Assembly: GCF_001984155.1 (NCBI RefSeq)
Contig: NZ_MTQO01000051.1
Coordinates: forward strand, 62,001 to 126,000
Reading direction: 5' to 3'
DNA from: Actinosynnema sp. ALI-1.44
GTDB taxonomy: Bacteria > Actinomycetota > Actinomycetes > Mycobacteriales > Pseudonocardiaceae
Length of the DNA: 64,000 bases
The notes beneath the pieces were generated by a model that was given only the letters and a program-made list of their open reading frames with translations, searched no databases and had not been told where the DNA came from. Positions 3 to 5,135 of this stretch are shown here, one piece after another. Position numbers and translations under genes: made by a program. The first letter of the stretch is position 1. Each line of letters starts with the position of its first letter.

Positions 3-761
3 GGCGAGCACTTCGCGGCCGCCTTCGAGCAGCGGGCGTTGTTCCACTGGCTCACCCAGGGCAGCGGTGAATTGTTCATCAAGATGCCGTACGTGCTGCG
101 CAACGCCAACCGCGTCGGCAAGTTCTACAGCCGGGACGCCAAGGCGATCAGCTACGCCTGCCGGGAGGTCAACGAACGCTTCTTCGACCCGGCGTTCTGG
201 GGTGCGATGCACGGTCTGGACTTCACGCCGACGAAGGTCGCCGACCTCGGCTCCGGCAGCGGCGAACGGCTGATCCAGATCGTCAGCCGCTATCCCGGAT
301 CCACCGGCGTCGGCGTGGACATCGCCGTGCCCGCGTTGGACATGGCACGCCACGAGGCGGCGGGCAACGACGTGGCCGACCGGTTGAGCTTCATCGAGGA
401 CGACGTGCGCGCGATCCAGCCGCGTCCCGAGTTCGCCGACGTCGACCTGCTCACCTGCTTCATGATGGGCCACGACTTCTGGCCGAGGGAGAACTGCGTG
501 CGCACGCTGCGGGCGCTGCGTGAGGCCTTCCCGTCGGCACGCCGGTTCATGCTCGGCGACACCGCGCGTACCGACACCTACAGCGACGACAAGCTGCCGA
601 TCTTCACGCTCGGCTTCGAAGTCGGCCACGACCTGATGGGCGTGTACCTGCCGACGATGGCGGAGTGGGAAGGCGTCTTCGAGGAGGGCGGGTGGCGCTG
701 CCTGCGCAAGCACACCATCGGTGTGTCCGTGTCGGCCATCTTCGAGTTGGAGCGTCTGTGA
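3..761 (+). CDS. SAM-dependent class I methyltransferase, 5' end outside the window
   Basis: The reading frame is open from the first bases of the window, so the start lies to the left and only the C-terminal 252 residues are seen. A Rossmann motif I is visible ([12 protein letters not shown]), followed by an acidic strand end (VGVDIA) and a post-I aspartate (IEDDVR), as in class I methyltransferases. The N-terminal helical part (from FHWLTQG) probably lids the active site. The stop overlaps the GTG of the next gene by 3 bases, so it is translationally coupled to the glutamate mutase genes and probably methylates an intermediate of the same pathway. The substrate cannot be read from sequence. 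The catalytic family is secure; the role is inferred from context. Confidence 0.85.
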
Positions 762-1231
762 CCCCCGGGCTGGCCCCTGAGCTGACCACCGGCACGGGCC
801 CGCGCCGCCGGTTCGTGCTGTCCAGCGTTCCGTCGGACGCGCACATGTGGAACCTGGTCGTGCTGCAGCTGTTCATCGAGGAGATGGGCCACGAGGTGAT
901 CAACCTCGGTGTGTGCGTGCCGGTCGACCTGCTGGTCGACCGGTGCCGCGCCGAACAGCCGGACTGCGTGGTCATCAGCACGGTCAACGGGCACGGCTAC
1001 ATCGACGGCGTCGGCGTGATCGACGCGTTGCGGGCCGACCCGGCGTGCGCCGACCTGCTCGTGGTGATCGGCGGGGCGCTCGGCGTCGTGGGGGACAGGA
1101 ACACCGGCCTGGCCGGTGACCTGCTCGACCACGGCTACGACGCGGTGTTCCCGGTGGCCGCGGGCCAGACCGGCGAGGCGATGGGGCGGTTCCGCGAGTT
1201 CGTCGCCGAGCGCATGCGGCTGCCGGTATGA
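758..1231 (+). CDS. glmS-like: B12-binding small subunit of a glutamate mutase-type enzyme (GlmS/MutS-like)
   Basis: A 157-residue protein starting at the GTG that overlaps the methyltransferase stop. It is a cobalamin-binding Rossmann domain: the lower axial histidine lies in a DxH motif (SDAHMWN, Asp27 and His29), followed by ISTVNGHG (the SxL region) and VVIGGALG (the GG region). In glutamate mutase S subunits the first motif is normally DxHxxG; here the glycine position is Asn, and the SxL leucine is Val. Those are divergences, but the His ligand is kept. It should form an adenosylcobalamin-dependent complex with the next gene, which overlaps it by 4 bases. The name follows enzymology use and is not the glucosamine synthase glmS. 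Confidence 0.85.
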
Positions 1232-3484: not shown

Positions 3485-4770
3485 ACCGGCTGCGGGCAGA
3501 GGGATTCCCCGAACAGGCGATCCGGGCACGGGCCCGTGACGGCGCCGCGGCGGCGTTCCCGCCCGTCGAAAGCTACGGCACGACCGTGTACGGGGCGACC
3601 GGGGCAGTGCACCGCGACCCCCTGGACGCGATCCGGCTGGCGCCGCCGATCTTCACGCCGAACCGGATGGACAAACTCCTCGACCTGGCACGGGAACCGA
3701 CCTACGGCGACGTCGACCTGACCACCGTGATCGGCGGGTTCACCGCGCCGGTCCCGGTCTACCTCTCGGCGTTCGGGTCGACCCGGGTCGCCGGTCCCGA
3801 CATCGGCCTGGCGATCAGCGGGCAGGCCGGGCGGCTCGGAGTTCCGGTGGTGATCGGCGAGAACGTCGTCCCGGTCAACGGGTACGGCCGTCTCGGGGCG
3901 GTGGGGGAGCGGTCACTGCTGCGGCGGGTCCGCGCGTACGCCGAGCAACTGCCGGACGGGCTCGGCGGCCTCGTCGTCCAGCAGAGCACGGAGGACGCCG
4001 ACGCCGAGGTGTGGAACCTGGTCTACAGCGACCCGTCCACCCGGTCGCTGCTGGACTCCGGGCGGCTCGGGTTCGAGCTGAAAGTGGGCCAGGGAGCCAA
4101 ACCCGGGATCGGCGGGATGACGGTCCTCGACCGCGCCGACGCCGACCGCGTCGGCGACCAGTACTCGCTCGACCTCGTCTACGGCGCCGAGAGCGGACGC
4201 GTGCTGCGGTGCAGCAGCCCGGGCACGTTCACCCCGGAGATCCTGCGTCAGCAGATCAGGTTGATGCGCAACAACTTCCCGCGCGCGAAGACGTGGGTCA
4301 AGCTGCACCCCGGCCGGGACGTCCGCGAAGCGGCGGCCGTGGCGTGGCAGGCCGGTGCCGACGCGGTCACCGTGGACGGTGCCGAGGGCGGCACCGGCTG
4401 GGCGCCACTGGCGTTCCTCGACCACGTCGGGTTGCCGCTGGGCGAATGCCTGACCCAGATCGACGCCGGACCGCACTGCCTGCTGGCCTCCGGCGGGGTC
4501 TGGGAGGGCGCGCGGGCGGTGAAGTGCCTCGCACTGGGTGCCAGGGCGGTCGGGCTCGGCCGTGCGGGGCTGCTCGCCGCCGACGAGGACACCGAGCACG
4601 GCCTGACGCGCCTGATCGACTGCCTGGCGTTCGAACTGCGGCTGCTGATCAGCTCGCTCGGCGAGTACGCGCCGGGCTCGGTGGGGATCAAGGACGTGTG
4701 GGCGCCGGGCCTGCCGGTACCCACCCACACCATGCCGCTCGCCGGCATCGACACGAGGAGAAGACAATGA
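3481..4770 (+). CDS. Stand-alone FMN-binding glutamate synthase-like domain protein
   Basis: A 429-residue protein starting at a GTG that overlaps the upstream stop by 4 bases. It corresponds to the FMN/2-oxoglutarate barrel of glutamate synthase: AKPGIGGM matches the loop before the active site, VKLHPGRDV and VTVDGAEGGTG match the FMN phosphate region, and LASGGVWEGARAVKCLALGA matches the last strands. The glutaminase and FAD domains are absent. After the last barrel strand the usual cluster of three Cys that ligate the 3Fe-4S centre is missing (the sequence runs GRAGLLAADEDTEHG). It is therefore probably a flavin oxidoreductase acting on an imine or enamine rather than a normal GltB. It ends in a 4-base overlap with the next gene. 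Confidence 0.8.
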   Translation: MNRLRAEGFPEQAIRARARDGAAAAFPPVESYGTTVYGATGAVHRDPLDAIRLAPPIFTPNRMDKLLDLAREPTYGDVDLTTVIGGFTAPVPVYLSAFGSTRVAGPDIGLAISGQAGRLGVPVVIGENVVPVNGYGRLGAVGERSLLRRVRAYAEQLPDGLGGLVVQQSTEDADAEVWNLVYSDPSTRSLLDSGRLGFELKVGQGAKPGIGGMTVLDRADADRVGDQYSLDLVYGAESGRVLRCSSPGTFTPEILRQQIRLMRNNFPRAKTWVKLHPGRDVREAAAVAWQAGADAVTVDGAEGGTGWAPLAFLDHVGLPLGECLTQIDAGPHCLLASGGVWEGARAVKCLALGARAVGLGRAGLLAADEDTEHGLTRLIDCLAFELRLLISSLGEYAPGSVGIKDVWAPGLPVPTHTMPLAGIDTRRRQ

Positions 4771-5135
4771 TGATCGAAACCGACTTACGCAGCCGTCAGG
4801 TGCGGCACTACTACGAACTGGTCGACCTGGCCGACTTCGACAGCCTGGTCCGGCTGTTCGCCCCGGACGCGGTGTACCACCGGCCGGGCTTCGACCCGAT
4901 CGTCGGCCACGACGGCCTGACCAGGTTCTTCACCGCCCAGCGGCAGATCCGCGAAGGCGCGCACGTGGTCGAGTCCATCGTGGACGCGGGCGACCAGGTC
5001 GCGGTGCGCGGCGTCTTCGCGGGCACGCTGAAGAACGGCACTGAGGTGACGGCGCGGTTCGCCGACTTCTTCAAGTTCGCCGCCGACGGCCGGTTCGAAC
5101 GCCGGTACACGTACTTCTACGCGCCATTGGTCTGA
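4767..5135 (+). CDS. SnoaL-like / nuclear transport factor 2-fold protein
   Basis: A 122-residue single-domain protein with the NTF2/SnoaL cone fold signature: an N-terminal helix (VRHYYELVDLADFDSLVRLF), the segment APDAVYHRPGF, then alternating strands ending FERRYTYFYAP. ATG 4767 overlaps the preceding stop and has a gaggag site nine bases upstream. Such proteins act as small isomerases, cyclases or hydrolases in natural product pathways. As the last gene of the coupled set it probably handles a reactive intermediate made by the upstream enzymes. The fold is clear; the reaction is unknown. Confidence 0.8.
   Translation: MMIETDLRSRQVRHYYELVDLADFDSLVRLFAPDAVYHRPGFDPIVGHDGLTRFFTAQRQIREGAHVVESIVDAGDQVAVRGVFAGTLKNGTEVTARFADFFKFAADGRFERRYTYFYAPLV

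Follow-up and report, generated by a model that had tools for sequence, protein, structure and literature searches.

The four genes between positions 758 and 4770 of the window very probably form a 3-methylasparagine cassette that serves the NRPS encoded directly upstream, as judged from sequence. The window is the whole 64,000-nucleotide stretch analyzed here, corresponding to C48:62001-126000 of an 11.7 Mb genome, where C48 denotes contig coordinates. The cassette is a supply operon of a known kind, while no description of its NRPS cluster was found in the literature searched, to which most subscription papers do not belong. The evidence leans toward a broader reading, in which the SlgE3-type FMN barrel is an undescribed partner of the AsnRS-like enzyme rather than a glutamate synthase, within a 3-methylasparagine cassette common in actinomycetes, and in which the window cluster directs the synthesis of an undescribed cyclic pentapeptide that is probably glycosylated and contains one or two methylasparagines. 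With these readings, a function can be assigned to a set of genes of which the FMN gene is present in 42 of 297 genomes of the family and in 47 of 295 of the Streptomyces type. They also suggest a sequence code by which A domains for methylasparagine may be recognized, and they make the printed assignment of SlgE3 as a glutamate synthase directly testable.

Gene layout of the window

Six genes occupy positions 1-5135, all on the plus strand and all with open frames according to the ORF list, Pfam, and NCBIfam; decay of these genes was rejected on account of the open frames. Four of the five junctions overlap by 4 bases and the fifth is a gap of 16, which bears out the earlier description of six translationally coupled genes with four overlapping junctions. 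The run begins with the 3' part of a gene for an MppJ-like SAM methyltransferase (1..761; Pfam Methyltransf_25 and PDB sequence search). The whole gene (C48:61739-62761, 340 aa) starts 262 bases to the left of the window, whose edge cuts it, so the operon start originally placed at position 3 was wrong.

The methyltransferase gene is followed by genes for MutS, the B12-binding small subunit of glutamate mutase (758..1231; Pfam B12-binding), and MutE, the large subunit (1228..2481; Pfam Met_asp_mut_E). Next come an AsnRS-like asparagine synthetase without an anticodon domain, the proposed 3-methylasparagine maker (2498..3484; NF005052, tRNA-synt_2, and likeness to archaeal AsnA), and a stand-alone FMN barrel that resembles the synthase domain of glutamate synthase and lacks the glutaminase domain (3481..4770; Pfam Glu_synthase). 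A SnoaL-like protein (4767..5135; Pfam SnoaL_2, 71.5 bits), which lies outside the recurrent cassette, completes the run. Elsewhere in the window, positions 11161-14348 encode a protein that by eye is TPR/CHAT-like and is split between two frames that overlap (11161-13776 with 13470-14348), an arrangement that looks like a frameshift.

Predicted route to 3-methylasparagine

MutS and MutE, going by their families and retained residues, would convert L-glutamate to 3-methylaspartate. MutS carries a B12 motif read as SDAHMWN and scores 54.6 bits against NCBIfam methylaspartate mutase subunit S, below the cut-off of 110. MutE scores 290.5 bits against Pfam Met_asp_mut_E and 161 bits against NCBIfam MthylAspMut_E, below the cut-off of 390, and matches the PDB glutamate mutase 6h9e with an E-value of 5.4e-33. 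Eight MutE residues, at positions presumed to be catalytic by the numbering of C. cochlearium GlmE, were checked in 71 sequences: seven are present in every sequence, and the eighth is present in 69, with gaps in the remaining two. Although both subunits fall under the NCBIfam equivalog cut-offs, the pair, with its catalytic residues, appears to provide the mutase that the cassette needs.

The AsnRS-like enzyme is predicted from its family to adenylate the side-chain carboxylate of 3-methylaspartate and to amidate it with ammonia, giving 3-methylasparagine. It reaches 447 bits against NCBIfam asparagine synthetase A (NF005052; cut-off 368), an assignment that supports the original prediction of a route from glutamate through 3-methylaspartate to a derivative amidated by an AsnRS-derived asparagine synthetase. 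Pfam finds only the class II catalytic domain tRNA-synt_2 in this protein and no anticodon-binding domain. Its profile aligns with archaeal AsnA 3p8t over two stretches (E 8.1e-56), and its predicted model (pLDDT 85.5) matches structures of AsnRS, AspRS, and archaeal AsnA (3reu). Other stripped aminoacyl-tRNA synthetases load their substrates onto a carrier or amine, and the enzyme could conceivably load 3-methylaspartate in this way without amidation. Such a role is quite improbable, however, given that the protein passes the asparagine synthetase A cut-off, aligns with archaeal AsnA, and has a precedent in SlgZ of streptolydigin biosynthesis. Formation of a beta-lactam by the AsnRS-like enzyme was also considered.

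Recurrence of the cassette across genomes

MutS, MutE, the AsnRS-like enzyme, and the FMN barrel form a recurrent four-gene cassette. A scan with the FMN protein yielded 145 relatives, the best 80 of which were kept as loci; among these, tblastn finds the AsnRS-like gene in all 80, MutE in 73, and MutS in 71. MutS, MutE, and AsnRS-like genes are likewise present in 40 of 40 Streptomyces-type loci, which were taken from 49 FMN rows and comprise 32 new places and 8 already among the 80. Called genes from the best 80 of 145 loci and the window include 70 neighboring AsnRS-FMN pairs, 65 of which overlap, and in some loci (e.g., L013) MutE and AsnRS are fused in one open frame. The cassette accompanies several kinds of assembly genes, among them various types of NRPS as well as clusters that contain ATP-grasp ligases.

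The flanking genes of the window do not share this distribution. By tblastn, the methyltransferase is found in none of the best 80 of 145 loci and none of the 40 Streptomyces-type loci, the VioC-like oxygenase encoded upstream is equally absent from both sets (0/80 and 0/40), and a SnoaL-like match occurs in 8 of the 80 and 3 of the 40. A methyltransferase or SnoaL step shared across the cassette was rejected, since neither is recurrent. The single linear pathway originally drawn through all six genes thus gives way to a core of four that recur together. A short NRPS-free pathway with the six genes in line would fit their coupling, but it is barely credible in view of the adjoining NRPS genes, the MppJ-like character of the methyltransferase, and the failure of the methyltransferase and SnoaL genes to recur with the cassette.

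No MutE match was found in 7 of the best 80 of 145 loci. One of these, L037, is a short contig, and the genomes of L012, L021, and L040 have MutE elsewhere. The genomes of L011, L083, and L087 contain the AsnRS-FMN pair and no MutE genome-wide at an E-value of 1e-10, and for this reason the pair need not act on 3-methylaspartate everywhere. At these three loci, the pair lies beside LeuA-, LeuC-, and LeuD-like genes, assigned by family search in L011 and by clustering in L083 and L087, with LeuA also found by a separate search. By eye, L083 and L087 also have a class IV aminotransferase-like gene, and no LeuB-like gene was seen within 20 kb to the left or right of L083. This gene set may provide a different way to make a 3-substituted aspartate.

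Several loci from Amycolatopsis and Actinokineospora (L054, L038, L055, L056, L058, L059, L063, and L084) have the cassette beside ATP-grasp ligases with no NRPS in reach, as judged with one member family-searched; by eye, a MetRS-like protein and a small cupin-like protein are also encoded nearby. The same arrangement of cassette and ATP-grasp ligases without an NRPS in reach is seen in L046, L072, L078, and L088, again with one member family-searched. Perhaps these loci direct peptide-like products made without an NRPS. A protein family of about 500 aa (family 13; L053, L015, L025, L066, and others) has a PP-loop-like GGGKDS motif and is encoded beside the cassette in 10 loci; its member from L053 has no Pfam or NCBIfam match at the cut-offs used.

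Distribution and role of the FMN barrel

The FMN barrel almost always accompanies the AsnRS-like enzyme, and its gene is tied more closely to the AsnRS-like gene than to the mutase. Of the 295 genomes in the Streptomyces sample, 47 have the FMN gene, and exactly these 47 have the AsnRS-like gene, a count that leaves out second fragments of G528 (FMN) and G475 (AsnRS). The two genes are adjacent in 47 of 48 cases, with G560, where they lie on different contigs, counted as non-adjacent. MutE occurs in 113 genomes of this sample, and the FMN gene is missing from 67 of them; 10 of the 113 have only a divergent MutE (best E-value above 1e-60), and with close MutE only, 57 of 103 genomes are without the FMN gene. 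In the family sample, the FMN gene lies beside 42 of 42 AsnRS places and 42 of 84 close MutE places but beside none of the 17 divergent ones; reclassing a G148 fragment that is 53% identical and was called divergent by E-value gives 42 of 85 and 0 of 16. Five of the 42 lone close MutE places were inspected, and two resemble macrolactam clusters by eye.

Within the family sample, 2 of 44 FMN places, those of G089 and G126, are without an AsnRS-like neighbor. The G089 place appears to be related to L013 and to have lost these genes. In G126 (locus L125, positions 1258-10492), an FMN-barrel homologue at 9347-10492 lies beside NRPS genes without an AsnRS-like gene, and families 81 and 82, which by eye resemble diaminopropionate synthesis genes, are also present.

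The FMN protein (430 aa) matches Pfam Glu_synthase and keeps a glutamate synthase motif, and its predicted model also resembles IDI-2 isomerases. Pfam finds no GATase_2 (glutaminase) domain in the 430 residues. Ferredoxin-dependent glutamate synthase has a three-cysteine Fe-S motif after the FMN domain; the cysteine spacing of the FMN protein does not fit this motif as understood here, and the Fe-S cluster motif is absent. Across 42 sequences of the FMN family, Cys323 is invariant, and Cys333 and Cys381 are found in 33 each.

Three roles for the FMN barrel can be compared against this distribution. Modification of 3-methylasparagine by epimerization, isomerization, or desaturation, with the NRPS loading an altered methylasparagine, is a possible but doubtful alternative that draws on the association of the FMN gene with the AsnRS-like gene across genomes, the retained glutamate synthase motif, and the likeness of the predicted model to IDI-2 isomerases. 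Speaking against it, streptolydigin has, to our knowledge, no oxidized residue at the methylasparagine-derived place, and omnipeptin is reported, in the available part of its description, with plain beta-methylasparagine. A glutamate synthase that feeds glutamate to the mutase is the role given to SlgE3, called a ferredoxin-dependent glutamate synthase in the available text of PMC5357945. It agrees with the Glu_synthase match and with the presence of MutE in nearly all FMN genomes (family sample, 41 of 42; Streptomyces sample, 46 of 47). The converse fails, however: most MutE genomes of the Streptomyces sample are without the FMN gene, while FMN and AsnRS share the same genomes, and in the family sample the FMN gene follows the AsnRS places rather than the close or divergent MutE places. 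The AsnRS-FMN pair also persists in three genomes without MutE, and the protein has neither a GATase_2 domain nor the expected Fe-S cysteines. Glutamate supply is on this evidence unlikely, and the role published for the enzyme seems to be mistaken, the distribution speaking against it. As a partner of the AsnRS-like enzyme, the FMN barrel would release ammonia from glutamate for the amidation, a mechanism offered as a tentative guess.

The adjoining NRPS cluster

Leftward from the methyltransferase gene, and on the same strand, lie an MFS gene, the gene for a VioC-like oxygenase, NRPS2, and NRPS1. By Pfam, NRPS1 (C48:38491-49095; 3534 aa) has three A domains, three PCP domains, and four C-like stretches, and NRPS2 (C48:49274-59425; 3383 aa) has two A domains, two PCP domains, and five C-like stretches. 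Together, they comprise five modules with five A and five PCP domains, directly to the left of the window and on the strand of the operon. The claim that the pathway works without an NRPS is thereby refuted; the missing NRPS was a window-edge effect. In the present reading, the leftward extension places the mutase as precursor supply beside an NRPS just left of the window, the very finding that the original prediction had named as its own refutation. The HHxxxDG motif is missing from the first C-like stretch of NRPS1 and from one such stretch of NRPS2, so the assembly line may be incomplete.

Epimerization-like domains follow modules 2, 4, and 5 by motif, module 5 being the end of NRPS2, and Pfam finds no TE (thioesterase) domain in NRPS1 or NRPS2. 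A gene for a PBP-type cyclase (C48:37014-38357) ends shortly before NRPS1; its relatives include 6ksu, which we take to be SurE (E 2.2e-68), and the PBP cyclase Ulm16 (E 1.3e-63). The cluster therefore presents the features of NRPSs cyclized by PBP-type enzymes: no TE, a terminal E domain (by motif), and a separate PBP-like cyclase gene. Given the epimerization-like end of module 5, the lack of a TE, and the position of the cyclase gene immediately upstream of NRPS1, a cyclic pentapeptide is the probable product.

Other genes point to further residues. The VioC-like oxygenase matches the Arg beta-hydroxylase 2wbq (E 4.5e-52), and the A-domain code of module 4, DLSEMVAVD, is acidic and presumably selects a basic residue; together, they suggest a basic, hydroxylated residue of the beta-hydroxyarginine type. 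The whole methyltransferase protein matches MppJ (4kib; E 3.6e-142), which, according to the available part of its description, methylates phenylpyruvate en route to beta-methylphenylalanine. With a class IV aminotransferase (C48:35577-36641, other strand), the methyltransferase probably supplies a beta-methyl aromatic residue of the beta-methylphenylalanine type. Farther left, several glycosyltransferase-like, deoxysugar, P450, and MbtH-like genes are suggested by eye from sequence starts. A motif scan of C48:1-126000 found no ketosynthase, its single hit, at 116451, sitting in a frame that stops immediately.

The A-domain codes, read at positions assumed here and after exclusion of a spurious A-domain hit at residue 136 of NRPS2, connect the cassette to particular modules. 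Module 5 has the code DALQATGGL and module 1 the code DALWVTGVF. Locus L162, which is with near certainty the S. lydicus 103 locus for streptolydigin, has an A domain with the code DALQATGGF, identical to that of module 5 at 8 of 9 positions. Owing to this match, module 5 of NRPS2 would load 3-methylasparagine, and module 1 of NRPS1 may do so as well.

A search of 11 genomes with the window A domain gave 15 matches at an E-value of 1e-90 or better, of which 4 are away from the cassette and 11 within about 22 kb of it, the latter including modules 5 and 1 of the window cluster itself. This A-domain link, the NRPS on the same strand, the recurrence of the four genes, and the match to L162 all argue for a 3-methylasparagine cassette. 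Several observations weigh against it. Once duplicates are removed, 82 loci have A domains in reach; W-type A domains are present at 39 of them and missing from the other 43. The code of module 1 differs, and MutS and MutE score under their NCBIfam cut-offs. In addition, at 1e-90 the window A domain matches nothing in the cassette genomes G114 and G147, the second of which is of the same genus as the window's genome, the cassette-free genomes G093 and G131 have weaker matches, and three genomes with the AsnRS-FMN pair are free of the mutase.

Comparison with known systems

Clusters of the vicenistatin type, which make macrolactams, use a glutamate mutase pair for 3-methylaspartate. Two loci that look like such clusters by eye (L128 and L131) have the mutase without an AsnRS-like or FMN gene, whereas the window has both.

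The gene set had been thought to match no described natural product, yet its four genes correspond to SlgE1, SlgE2, SlgE3, and SlgZ of streptolydigin, with identities between L162 and the window of 51% for MutS, 55% for MutE, 64% for FMN, and 68% for AsnRS. Deletions of slgE and slgZ genes have reportedly been described in two J. Bacteriol. papers. In the available text of PMC5357945, slgE1-slgE2-slgE3 constitute the 3-methylaspartate supply, and the AsnRS-like SlgZ acts in tetramic acid biosynthesis. The window shares all four cassette proteins with this system, including an AsnRS-like gene next to a stand-alone FMN barrel, and the code of the neighboring A domain. The two differ in layout: in S. 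lydicus, MutS and MutE lie with sugar-like genes on one strand and the A domain, FMN, and AsnRS-like genes on the opposite one, whereas all cassette genes of the window share one strand. They also differ in product, streptolydigin being, in the available text, a polyketide-peptide hybrid with a tetramic acid, while the window has a five-module NRPS with no ketosynthase found in the region scanned.

Omnipeptin is an NRPS product with beta-methylasparagine, called the first in a bacterial NRPS product by its authors in the available part of the paper. Its paper is the only one found to name beta- or 3-methylasparagine in the literature searched, and that literature, with subscription papers mostly outside it, yielded no other description of the cassette in NRPS clusters. 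Compared by product rather than by genes, both systems are NRPSs with methylasparagine, predicted in the case of the window, and omnipeptin is an 11-residue depsipeptide.

Biffamycin has a SurE-type cyclase according to the available part of its description, the main text of which has no mention, by term, of glutamate mutase or an asparagine-type residue. The mannopeptimycin cluster (mppJ) and systems with Ulm16-type PBP cyclases resemble the window in its MppJ-like methyltransferase, its PBP-type cyclase, and an NRPS with a terminal epimerization-like domain (by motif). Unlike these, the window cluster has the predicted methylasparagine cassette and, by eye, several glycosyltransferase-like genes to the left.
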